64,000 nucleotides of DNA, taken from positions 1,302,001 through 1,366,000 of the forward strand of contig NZ_CP060697.1 of assembly GCF_014352855.1 (NCBI RefSeq). The letters are read 5' to 3'. The notes under the pieces are model-generated. The model was not told where the DNA came from. It was given only the letters and a program-made list of their open reading frames with translations, and did no database searches. The position numbers and the translations under genes were made by a program. Numbering within the stretch: position 1 is the first letter of the stretch; every line of letters begins with the position of its first letter. Shown in pieces: positions 12,317 to 15,429 of the stretch. Source of the DNA: Sphingomonas sabuli. GTDB lineage: Bacteria > Pseudomonadota > Alphaproteobacteria > Sphingomonadales > Sphingomonadaceae.

Positions 12317-12392
12317 GCCGGATTAGCTCAGTTGGTAGAGCAGCGGTTTTGTAAACCGAAGGTCGCGGGTTCGAATCCTGCATCCGGCACCA
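12317..12392 (+). tRNA. tRNA-Thr (anticodon TGT)
   Basis: A 76-base cloverleaf with acceptor stem GCCGGAT/ATCCGGC, D arm AGCTCAGTTGGTAGAGC, anticodon loop TTTGTAA (anticodon TGT at 12350-12352), T arm GCGGGTTCGAATCCTGC and encoded CCA (12390-12392). Confidence 0.97.
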
Positions 12393-12929: not shown

Positions 12930-13016
12930 GATTCGGACACTCCCCAGTATCGAACCGGGAAAACGTCCGTCGGTGCGAATCTATCCCCCGCGGACGCAAT
13001 CCGCGCGACCGGCCGC

Positions 13017-13025
13017 TTTTCCACA
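13017..13025 (+). promoter_or_regulatory. DnaA-box-like site upstream of small RNA copy 1
   Basis: TTTTCCACA fits the DnaA-box consensus TTWTNCACA. The same nine bases lie at the same distance from the promoter in copy 2 (52 versus 51 bases before the -35). A single nine-base match could be chance, but its conservation in both copies argues for function. Confidence 0.45.
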
Positions 13026-13068
13026 GGCTTTTGCACCGATCCGTCCCCGGATTTCGTGTTTCGGGGAC

Positions 13069-13096
13069 TCGACCTTCGGGCCGGCATTGCTATTTT
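13069..13096 (+). promoter_or_regulatory. Predicted promoter of small RNA copy 1
   Basis: TCGACC (13069-13074) and TATTTT (13091-13096) are separated by 16 bases. Copy 2 has TCGACT and TATTTT with the same spacing, while the spacers themselves differ. Conservation of the two hexamers but not of the spacer is the pattern expected of a sigma-factor promoter. Confidence 0.6.
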
Positions 13097-13101
13097 GAAA
13101 C

Positions 13102-13163
13102 TGTGCTTCAGACCTTCGGGTCCAAAGCATGGGAACCCCGCCGGGTCAAACCGGCGGGGTTTA
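13102..13163 (+). ncRNA. Predicted ~62-nt small RNA, copy 1
   Basis: The predicted transcript folds into two hairpins. Hairpin 1 has an outer stem TGTGCTT/AAGCATG, an internal loop CA/CA, and an inner stem GACC/GGTC closed by a UUCG tetraloop (extra-stable C-UUCG-G). Hairpin 2 is the terminator AACCCCGCCGG/CCGGCGGGGTT with loop GTCAAA. The 62-nt length follows from the promoter position and is approximate. Three base pairs in hairpin 1 change in a compensatory way in copy 2, which supports a conserved RNA structure. I do not recognise the family; a target is unknown. Confidence 0.7.
13134..13162 (+). terminator. Intrinsic terminator of small RNA copy 1
   Basis: An 11-bp stem AACCCCGCCGG/CCGGCGGGGTT with a six-base loop, ending in TTTA. 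The stem is perfect. The U tract is short (three), and the hairpin is nearly symmetrical, so weak action in the other direction is possible. Confidence 0.7.
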
Positions 13164-13189
13164 CCGCATCTGGGGTCCGAGAAAGGGCG

Positions 13190-13984
13190 TCAGACCTCGA
13201 CCTCCACCCACATCGGCGCATGATCGCTGGTCTTGTCCCAACCGCGCGGGGTCCGGTCCACGCCTGCGGCCTTGAGGCCCTTGGCCAGCGCCGGGCTGAG
13301 CAAGGCATGGTCGATGCGGATGCCGGCATCGCGCGCGAACGAATTCCGCCAGTAATGCCAGAAGGTGTAGATGCGCTCGTCCGGATGCAGCTTGCGGATG
13401 GCGTCGGTCCATCCCTGCGCGACCAGCTCGGCATAAGCCTGCTTTGCTTCAGGGGCGAACAGCGCGTCCTTCTTCCAATTCTCCGGCTTGTAGACGTCCT
13501 CGTCGGTGGGGATGACGTTATAGTCGCCGATCAGGATCGCGGGCGCCTTGCTGTCGAGCAGATCCTGCGCATGCGCCTGCAGCCTTTCGAGCCAGGCCAG
13601 CTTGTAATCGAACTTGGGCCCCGGCCACGGATTGCCGTTGGGCGCATACATGTTGCCGACCAGCACGCCGCAGACCGCTGCCTCGATATACCGGCTCTGG
13701 TTGCGATCGGGATCGCCGGGCAGGCCGCGGCGCGTCTCGACGGGTTCGCCGACGCGGCTGAGCAACGCCACCCCGTTCCAGCTTTTCTGCCCGTGCCAGA
13801 TGACGTCGTAGCCGGCGGCGCGGATCTCGCTTGCGGGAAACTTCTCGTCGGTGGTCTTCAATTCTTGCAGACCGACCACGTCGGGTTCGAATTCTTCCAG
13901 CCAGCGCAGCAGGATCGGCAGGCGGCTGGTCACCCCGTTGATATTGTAGCTGGCGATTCGCAGCCGCTTCTTGCCCTTGGCCAT
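13190..13984 (-). CDS. xthA: Exodeoxyribonuclease III (AP endonuclease)
   Basis: A 264-residue enzyme of the endonuclease/exonuclease/phosphatase superfamily that cuts at abasic sites and resects 3' ends. Motifs in order are RIASYNINGVTSRLP, GLQELKTTDEKFP (metal-binding Glu), GVLVGNMYAPNGNPW, IGDYNVIPTDEDV (active-site Asp and Asn) and the C-terminal SDHAPMWVEVEV (catalytic His). The ATG at 13984 gives the normal length; the frame continues open upstream through the small-RNA repeat. It is flanked on both sides by copies of the small-RNA unit, and its first 55 bases are overlapped by the 3' end of the upstream threonine synthase-like frame. Confidence 0.93.
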   Translation of the reverse strand: MAKGKKRLRIASYNINGVTSRLPILLRWLEEFEPDVVGLQELKTTDEKFPASEIRAAGYDVIWHGQKSWNGVALLSRVGEPVETRRGLPGDPDRNQSRYIEAAVCGVLVGNMYAPNGNPWPGPKFDYKLAWLERLQAHAQDLLDSKAPAILIGDYNVIPTDEDVYKPENWKKDALFAPEAKQAYAELVAQGWTDAIRKLHPDERIYTFWHYWRNSFARDAGIRIDHALLSPALAKGLKAAGVDRTPRGWDKTSDHAPMWVEVEV

Positions 13985-15429
13985 AAGCGGGAAACACGCG
14001 GCGCGCGGCTTTTGTTCGAGTCGCCGCCGAGTCGCGCGACAATCCACCGGCTTTTCCACAGGATCATCCCCGGAAATCGCGATTTCGTGCCTGCAATCGG
14101 ACTCGACTCCGGCGCCCATGGCGCTATTTTGAAACTGTACTTCAGGTCTTCGGACCAGAAGTATGGGAACCCCGCCGGGTCAAACCGGCGGGGTTTACCT
14201 TTTCCGGCTCCCGAAAATTCGCGACGCCACAGTTGGTCGGCCCGTGCGCTGGCCAACGTGAGCCGCCGCGACCGGTCCGGCAGCGGATATTTGTTGCCGT
14301 TGGCGCAATTGAACAGCAGCACCTGCTCGTCCTTTCCGACCAGCCCGCGGTCCAGCGCCTTGCGCCATCCCGCCACCACCGCTCCGCCTTCCGGGCACAA
14401 CAACATGCCGTCGTCGCGCGCGACGTCTTCCACGCCGGCGACGATCGCCTCTTCCTCGACCGCGATCGCCGCGCCTCCGCTCTCCCGCACCGCGCGCAGA
14501 ATCAGGAAGTCGCCGACCGCCGCCGGCACGCGGATGCCGGTGGCGACCGTCGCCGCGCCTTCCCAGCGTTCGGCGAATTCCTCGCCCGCCTCGAACGCGC
14601 GCACCATCGGCGCACAACCGGCGGCCTGGATCGCGTACATCCGCGGCCGCTCCGGCCCGATCAGGCCGGCCGCTTCCAGCTCGTCGAACGCCTTCCACAT
14701 GCCGATCAACCCGGTGCCGCCGCCGGTCGGATAGAAGATCGCATCGGGCAGGCGCCAGCCAAGCTGCTCCGCCAGCTCCAGCCCCATCACCTTCTTGCCC
14801 TCGATCCGGTACGGCTCCTTCAGCGTCGAACAATCGAACCAGCGACCTTCCGCGGCACCTTCGCGCACCAGCCGCCCGCACTCGTCGATCTGCCCGTCCG
14901 CGACCCACACCGTCGCGCCGTAGGCCGCGGTCTCGCGTACGTTGATCTCCGGCGTTTCTGCGGGACAGATGACCAGCGTTTCCATCCCCGCTCGCGCGCC
15001 ATAGGCCGCCAGCGCCGCCCCCGCATTGCCGTTGGTCGGCAACGCCATGCGCGTAATTCCGAAATGGCGCGCCATGCTCACCGCCATCGCCAGGCCGCGC
15101 GCCTTGAACGACCCGGTCGGCAAACGTCCTTCGTCCTTGACCAGCAGGCTGCGTGCGCCAGCCCTGCGCGCGGTTTCCCGCAAGTCCAGGATCGGCGTGA
15201 CCGGCTCGCCCAGCGACACCGGCTCCGCGCCCTCGGGAAGCGGCAGCAGCTCGCGCCATTTCCACATGTCGGCCGCCCGTCCGGCCAGCGTCTCGCGACT
15301 TATTTGCCGGGCGACCGCATCGAGGTCGTAGCGGACCAGCAAGGGCTTGCCTGCCGCGCTCAGATTGTGGGGCCGGCCGGCATTGTAGCGTTCGCCGGTC
15401 AGCGAGCATTCGAGATGGGTGACGTTCAT
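13930..15429 (-). CDS. Threonine synthase-like PLP-dependent enzyme with an anomalous C-terminal extension
   Basis: A 499-codon frame of the fold-type II PLP family (threonine synthase and relatives), expected to make a threonine-type product from a phospho-homoserine-like substrate. The N terminus has a small Cys motif region (HLECSLTGERYNAGRP), the PLP lysine sits in PTGSFKARG (K109), and GGGTGLIG binds the phosphate. The recognisable enzyme ends near residue 384 (NGNKYPLPD). The last ~100 residues run antisense through small-RNA copy 2 and on into exonuclease III, with no family resemblance. Either a stop codon was lost or there is a frameshift near 14.2 kb. The domain call is strong; the exact substrate and the 3' end are uncertain. 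Confidence 0.8.
   Translation of the reverse strand: MNVTHLECSLTGERYNAGRPHNLSAAGKPLLVRYDLDAVARQISRETLAGRAADMWKWRELLPLPEGAEPVSLGEPVTPILDLRETARRAGARSLLVKDEGRLPTGSFKARGLAMAVSMARHFGITRMALPTNGNAGAALAAYGARAGMETLVICPAETPEINVRETAAYGATVWVADGQIDECGRLVREGAAEGRWFDCSTLKEPYRIEGKKVMGLELAEQLGWRLPDAIFYPTGGGTGLIGMWKAFDELEAAGLIGPERPRMYAIQAAGCAPMVRAFEAGEEFAERWEGAATVATGIRVPAAVGDFLILRAVRESGGAAIAVEEEAIVAGVEDVARDDGMLLCPEGGAVVAGWRKALDRGLVGKDEQVLLFNCANGNKYPLPDRSRRLTLASARADQLWRREFSGAGKGKPRRFDPAGFPYFWSEDLKYSFKIAPWAPESSPIAGTKSRFPGMILWKSRWIVARLGGDSNKSRAPRVSRLWPRARSGCESPATISTG
14052..14060 (+). promoter_or_regulatory. DnaA-box-like site upstream of small RNA copy 2
   Basis: TTTTCCACA again matches TTWTNCACA, 51 bases before the -35 hexamer, like the site at 13017-13025. 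Confidence 0.45.
14103..14130 (+). promoter_or_regulatory. Predicted promoter of small RNA copy 2
   Basis: TCGACT (14103-14108) and TATTTT (14125-14130) with a 16-base spacer that differs from copy 1, so only the promoter hexamers are conserved. Confidence 0.6.
14136..14197 (+). ncRNA. Predicted ~62-nt small RNA, copy 2
   Basis: Same two-hairpin fold as copy 1. The outer stem is TGTACTT/AAGTATG (G-C to A-U change relative to copy 1). The inner stem is GGTC/GACC on a UUCG loop (A-U to G-C and C-G to U-A changes). The terminator hairpin is identical. It lies antisense to the odd 3' extension of the threonine synthase-like frame and points away from exonuclease III. Confidence 0.7.
14168..14196 (+). 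terminator. Intrinsic terminator of small RNA copy 2
   Basis: Same perfect 11-bp stem and loop as copy 1, followed by TTTACCTTTT. Confidence 0.7.

Follow-up and report, generated by a model that had tools for sequence, protein, structure and literature searches.

The small RNAs that stand closest to the locus described here have links to stress or to the cell cycle. GsrN of Caulobacter is transcribed from a consensus EcfG-type sigma promoter, has an exposed C-rich 5' loop as its key element, and usually has its homologues near the stress-sigma locus, with BLASTn matches confined to Caulobacteraceae (PMC5869019). CcnA, also from Caulobacter, is a non-coding RNA of 182 nt tied to the replication and cell-cycle network; its gene lies in the replication origin and carries weak DnaA boxes together with CtrA boxes (PMC8959179). 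EcpR1 of Sinorhizobium is a stress-linked small RNA with two stem-loop domains that touches the cell cycle, having a plain sigma70-type promoter controlled by the stringent response, and dnaA and gcrA as targets (PMC4414408). In sphingomonads, the general-stress motif is GGAAC-N16-CGTT in Sphingopyxis granuli (PMC7083833) and GGAAC-N17-20-GTT in Sphingomonas melonis (PMC6599016). The accessible text of these two EcfG-regulon papers names no EcfG-driven small RNA, and the main text of the S. melonis paper contains none of the terms sRNA, small RNA and non-coding; SuhB of Sphingopyxis granuli appears as a sphingomonad small RNA in the title of a cited reference (PMC7083833). A 64,000-nt stretch of the Sphingomonas sabuli genome (contig NZ_CP060697.1, positions 1,302,001 to 1,366,000; hereafter the window) carries two similar short elements, each made of two hairpins, on either side of an exonuclease III gene.

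These two elements are best read, from sequence comparison, as paralogous genes of a ~60-nt non-coding RNA on the plus strand, and they probably belong to an undescribed family of regulatory small RNAs wired to stress or to replication and the cell cycle. The RNA consists of hairpin 1 (an outer stem, often a purine-rich internal loop, and a stable tetraloop) followed by a terminator-like hairpin 2. The original prediction, made from the letters of the window, had proposed two copies with TCGACY and TATTTT hexamers at 16-nt spacers, a UUCG-capped hairpin, an identical terminator-like hairpin, and three compensatory stem pairs between the copies. The hexamers, the spacers and the UUCG-capped hairpin are present in both, the stem pairs are as it described, and the terminator-like hairpin is a 32-nt block (GGGAACCCC...GGGGTTT) identical in copies 1 and 2. 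In 100 shuffles of the window, no such 32-nt repeat occurred at up to 3 mismatches, and a gap-free repeat of 95 nt with 83% identity covers both copies. Both also fold far better than shuffled sequence (z of -7.53 for copy 1 and -7.88 for copy 2, with 0 of 200 shuffles as good in each case). The whole plus-strand units span 13069-13162 and 14103-14196. A third copy, absent from the original prediction, lies at genome position 191065, 1.1 Mb from the window pair.

The search of sphingomonad genomes with a covariance model, which the original prediction had proposed, places the RNA in about half of the genomes of the genus. With an E-value limit of 0.01, a covariance model had matches in 36 of these 71 genomes; dropping two weak matches (G080; G061 contig 291) left a counted set of 50 copies from 35 genomes, and minus-strand matches to hairpin 2 and a match to hairpin 2 only (G000:584630) were also left uncounted. 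Model R2, run on the 36 genus genomes without a convincing copy, made one convincing addition (G067), the other matches inspected being terminator-like or unrelated; the genus total is 51 copies in 36 of 71 genomes. An order-wide search of 196 genomes with model R1 returned the genus matches and one terminator-only match, nothing else. A pattern search gave seven named records, all Sphingomonas or Sphingomicrobium (Sphingomonas rhizophila, S. cremea, and metagenome-assembled genomes of Sphingomicrobium and Sphingomonas). The suhB family exists in Rfam. Scans of the window and of relative loci gave no credible match, suhB included, in keeping with the earlier statement that no known family was recognised: in the window nothing besides two tRNAs reached the gathering score (Rfam 15), and 17 relative loci gave sub-threshold matches alone at E up to 1. 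A literature search, which covered few subscription papers, found no report of the RNA family.

The relatives indicate that RNA structure is conserved. Among 28 distinct copies, standard pairs fill 96.0% of cells (81.2% in shuffles), both sides have changed in 13 of 21 pairs, and covariation scores 0.388, compared with 0.122 for shuffled alignments, of which 0 of 500 reach the observed value; the alignment behind these figures was fitted to the covariance model, and fitting favours structure. Paired cells drop to 30-50% in slid-alignment controls. In the 50-copy set, both sides have changed in 13 of 20 predicted pairs. Uncompensated stem changes in homologues, which the original prediction had said would speak against it, are not the pattern found here. 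The basal pair is G.U in all 50 copies, and this fixes the plus strand, because the opposite strand would give C.A; with the covariation, it supports the predicted plus-strand small-RNA gene. The same two-hairpin unit, with stem changes and a loop swap from UUCG to GAAA, is seen in the exonuclease-gene flanks of other genus genomes, and hairpin 1 is shorter, with the inner stem missing, in two copies. A small protein starting from the ATGG at the hairpin junction is barely plausible. A 15-codon stretch is similar in many copies, but this similarity arises because the hairpin is conserved; the reading frame is not constant, as the ATG is followed by GG in some copies and by GGG in others, and the lengths of the open frames scatter between 4 and 706 codons. 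The covarying stems and the linker-ATG frame, which is not kept between copies, agree with the earlier view that RNA and not protein is under selection.

Two alternative layouts are recognisable at a fixed distance upstream of the RNA, both putative promoters: a DnaA-box-like array with GANTC sites and a sigma70-like core, or the EcfG-type motif GGAAC-N16-CGTT. The DnaA-box consensus is TTATCCACA; GANTC is the site of CcrM, and GcrA action depends on GANTC. With up to one mismatch to this consensus allowed between -160 and -40, a DnaA-box-like site is found, always in plus orientation, in 29 of the 33 copies outside the EcfG class (for one of these 33 the upstream sequence is limited to 5 nt) and in no control window (0 of 206, taken from seven other offsets); the whole window holds 3 such sites on both strands together. 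Among 31 box-bearing copies (the 29 plus two hybrids), 25 have the site at -75 to -81; in the remaining six it lies at -91/-92 or -68, and the positions follow a 12-bp register. All three copies of the S. sabuli genome are of the box type, and none has an EcfG promoter of the form GGAAC-N16/17-CGTT. In the array of copy 2 the sites are 12 bp apart, and the middle site alone stays within one mismatch of the consensus. GANTC follows the same division: 90 sites lie in 32 non-EcfG promoters (22.5 per kb versus 2.4 per kb in flanks; mean 14.3 and largest 29 in 200 shuffles), whereas the 17 EcfG-class promoters together contain 1. All 8 genomes tested for GcrA encode it. DnaA-box-like sites at a fixed place are a feature of a DnaA-controlled transcription unit, and GANTC enrichment with an encoded GcrA is a feature of a GcrA/CcrM-controlled promoter; the box-type copies carry both and are candidates for both kinds of control. 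The hexamers and spacing of the original prediction stand, and the putative promoter that they form is not a plain housekeeping one.

The box array might itself be the functional element, with the hairpins a bystander or a terminator. datA and DARS are sites of DnaA titration and reactivation, and an element of that kind would explain why no core promoter element is as well placed as the array and why the same array also precedes mraZ-like genes that lack the RNA. A three-box pattern (up to 2 mismatches) has 22 matches in the 71 genomes, compared with 3 for a reversed-pattern control; 15 of the 22 are upstream of the RNA, 5 ahead of mraZ-like genes in one shared setting, and 2 elsewhere. This DNA-based explanation is nonetheless unlikely, because the RNA is kept in 17 copies that have the EcfG motif, 15 of which lack a box, the distance from array to RNA start is kept, and the stems covary as RNA. 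The array also belongs with the RNA and not with the exonuclease gene, since exonuclease III is missing from the stretch examined in 12 of 29 box-only copies. The mraZ-linked arrays lie around 1501-1527 in loci L112, L116, L121, L126 and L130; Pfam confirms MraZ in L112 and L126, and the other three were assigned by eye. The exact TTATCCAC[AC] occurs at 8 sites in the S. sabuli genome versus 29 for the reversed pattern, and one of the 8 is at -79 of copy 3 and another ahead of an mraZ-like frame (L207 around 535).

In the second class of copies, GGAAC-N16-[CTG]GTT stands directly upstream of 17 of 50 copies; the background in genus flanks is 13 per 249,782 strand-bases. At spacers of 15, 17, 18 or 20, GGAAC/[CTG]GTT is found at no copy among the 50. 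The DnaA box is lacking in 15 of the 17, and five genomes hold an EcfG-bearing copy and a box-only copy together. NepR was found in 10 of 10 genus genomes, and their nepR loci, used for calibration (L160-L169), all contain GGAAC-N16/17-CGTT at one conserved place, the spacer being 17 in six of these genomes and 16 in the other four. By eye, most EcfG-class copies (for example L054, L059, L065) have an A/T-rich stretch such as AAAAAATTTT before the -35, resembling an UP element. Tandem RNA copies 157-173 nt apart occur in L073, L076 and L067, and one of each pair has the EcfG motif; its partner carries a DnaA box in two of the three loci (L073 and L076), and the contig end cuts off the upstream region of the partner in L067.

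The presence of multiple copies, at separate loci and in some cases in tandem, could suggest a mobile repeat, of the repetitive extragenic palindromic or miniature inverted-repeat type, spreading with its own promoter. This is highly improbable: at most three copies were counted per genome, the promoters are distinct and constrained, and the stems vary with compensation.

Outside the genus, the picture of an RNA with an EcfG-type promoter extends further, with less certainty. Among 298 genomes of the family, model R2 had matches in 3 from outside the genus. Model R3, with E allowed up to 0.1, had 66 matching genomes among 397; of these, 59 lie outside the genus, most with weak matches, and 24 of the 59 were read. 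The EcfG motif lies within 150 nt in 15 of the 24 matches, from ten genera, with a spacer of 16 in 14 and of 17 in one (L171, L173-L176, L178-L183, L185, L187, L188 and L190). The independent count is 13 of 22, because L171 and L173 were in the R3 training set. The 9 matches without the motif were not counted as members; one of them, L177, shares the extra 5' hairpin of the members by eye. The exact DnaA box TTATCCAC is present in none of the 24. Most of the 15 RNAs with the motif have an additional 5' hairpin ahead of hairpin 1, with two loop types (GATCGAAAGAAA or CGATGTAAAAATC), and L188 has the same two-hairpin form as the genus RNA.

These out-of-genus RNAs could be unrelated stress RNAs with similar terminators, the genus-level family alone being real. 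This has to be taken seriously, if at somewhat less than even confidence: the extra 5' hairpin and a variable hairpin 1 are found in most, L171 and L173, the two checked for a common locus, share none, and most scores are modest. On the other side, R3 is an RNA-only model that does not include the promoter, yet the motif accompanies 15 of the 24 matches read, against the genus-flank background of 13 per 249,782 strand-bases; a common AGGGAGCCCCG...CGGGGCTTAC block is present, and L188 keeps the layout of the genus. Homology of the RNA across genera is likely, not proved. We infer that the EcfG-driven form is the older, and the genus form shortened and partly rewired to a DnaA-array promoter.

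The genomic setting of the RNA is variable (Table 1 gives the setting in the window).

Table 1. Position of the two RNA copies, their predicted upstream elements and neighbouring genes in the window
Feature	Position	Strand	Details or basis
tRNA-Thr (TGT), frequent upstream neighbour of the RNA in relatives	12317..12392	+	
DnaA-box-like site, 81 nt upstream of the copy 1 model match	13017..13025	+	TTTTCCACA
GACTC (GANTC) overlapping the copy 1 -35 region	13066..13070	n/a	sequence
Copy 1 predicted core promoter	13069..13096	+	TCGACC 13069-13074, 16-nt spacer, TATTTT 13091-13096
RNA copy 1 hairpin 1, UUCG loop	13101..13132	+	fold, alignment of copies
RNA copy 1 hairpin 2, terminator-like, then TTTACC	13133..13162	+	fold, alignment of copies
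Exodeoxyribonuclease III gene, between both RNA copies	13190..13984	-	TIGR00195, 243.7 bits
GAGTC (GANTC) upstream of copy 2; second GANTC at 14018-14022	14029..14033	n/a	sequence
Copy 2 upstream array	14040..14072	+	CAATCCACC 14040-14048, DnaA-box-like TTTTCCACA 14052-14060, TCATCCCCG 14064-14072
Two abutting GACTC sites at the copy 2 -35 region	14100..14109	n/a	sequence
Copy 2 predicted core promoter	14103..14130	+	TCGACT, 16-nt spacer, TATTTT 14125-14130
RNA copy 2 hairpin 1, UUCG loop	14135..14166	+	fold, alignment of copies
RNA copy 2 hairpin 2, terminator-like	14167..14196	+	fold, alignment of copies
Threonine synthase gene, convergent with RNA copy 2	14218..15429	-	

Exonuclease III lies within the stretch examined at 21 of 50 copies, many copies face a convergent threonine synthase gene or follow a tRNA-Thr, and 15 of 50 have none of the three in that stretch. 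The bracketing of exonuclease III noted in the original prediction is true for the window pair and recurs in G021 and G070, three genomes in all; it is one of several settings, and more than two copies exist. The hairpins might instead be 3' elements (terminators or structures of the 3' untranslated region) of the minus-strand threonine synthase and exonuclease III genes, an idea favoured by the threonine synthase frame ending 2-13 nt from the RNA end in 5 of 7 relatives compared. It is very unlikely, given that the G.U basal pair would be C.A on that strand, the promoter motifs are oriented along the plus strand, and neither gene lies in the stretch examined around those 15 copies. In the window, the minus-strand threonine synthase frame is stop-free down to 13930 and so runs antisense through RNA copy 2. 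Conservation continues for ~10 nt past hairpin 2 (window 13160-13175 and 14194-14209), as TTTAC and then T and G positions, and is present also in copies far from threonine synthase.

Several observations weigh against a regulatory small-RNA family with these two kinds of wiring. No copy came to light in 35 of the 71 genus genomes, roughly half. Membership of the EcfG class was decided by the motif itself, and within 45 nt upstream of the 50 copies the motif also occurs at spacers 19 (6 copies), 21 (2), 22 (4) and 23 (1), which we take to be T-rich stretches out of register. The promoter classes are not cleanly separate, because 8 copies combine an EcfG-like -35 with a sigma70-like -10 (GGAAC-N16-TANNNT). 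At the nepR loci, the motif is ~1.25 kb away and on the opposite strand. The boxes of the window copies are one mismatch off TTATCCACA, the three-box pattern lies away from the RNA in 7 of its 22 matches, and the sigma70-like core is loosely kept, TANNNT being present in 24 of 32. The T run after hairpin 2 is just three long (TTTACC), and an intrinsic terminator there would be weak for that reason. Finally, pairing of the RNA with gcrA start regions in 8 genomes was no better than with random windows (fraction as strong 0.14-0.92).

If the regulatory RNA family is real, its action can be sketched. EcfG would transcribe the RNA under stress from the EcfG-class sister copies; DnaA, together with GANTC-methylation control (GcrA/CcrM), would time the window copies to the replication cycle; and the RNA might act in trans, on mRNAs or a binding protein. 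We lean to a protein partner or structure-based action over antisense pairing, since the RNA leaves hardly any base unpaired and most of its apical loops are UUCG or GAAA. More speculatively, and with rather less than even confidence, one RNA family may be an exchangeable output of the general stress response and the DnaA/GcrA cycle, its promoters having been swapped in evolution and its dose coupling stress to replication. This idea is testable by species comparison, because sister copies differ in promoter class. If it is true, RNA dose, with some genomes keeping one copy of each class, links stress to chromosome replication in sphingomonads. The family is a direct candidate for an EcfG-driven small RNA in these bacteria, and it would be unusual for replication initiation to be linked to RNA-based control through a DnaA-box array set at a constant distance from so small an RNA gene. 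We take Erythrobacter litoralis to be a relative within the sphingomonad order.

That species is named, in the accessible part of the GsrN report, as one without an apparent gsrN-like gene (PMC5869019). The sphingomonad RNA is like GsrN in the EcfG-type promoter of its sister copies and differs from it in lying at other loci and in that no C-rich 5' loop is exposed (the inferred 5' end is where hairpin 1 begins); the window copies differ further in having no EcfG motif. It is also unlike CcnA, being ~60 nt long, multi-copy, and preceded by a phased array upstream of its start. The window copies resemble CcnA and EcpR1 in their predicted wiring, and the EcfG copies resemble the GsrN kind.

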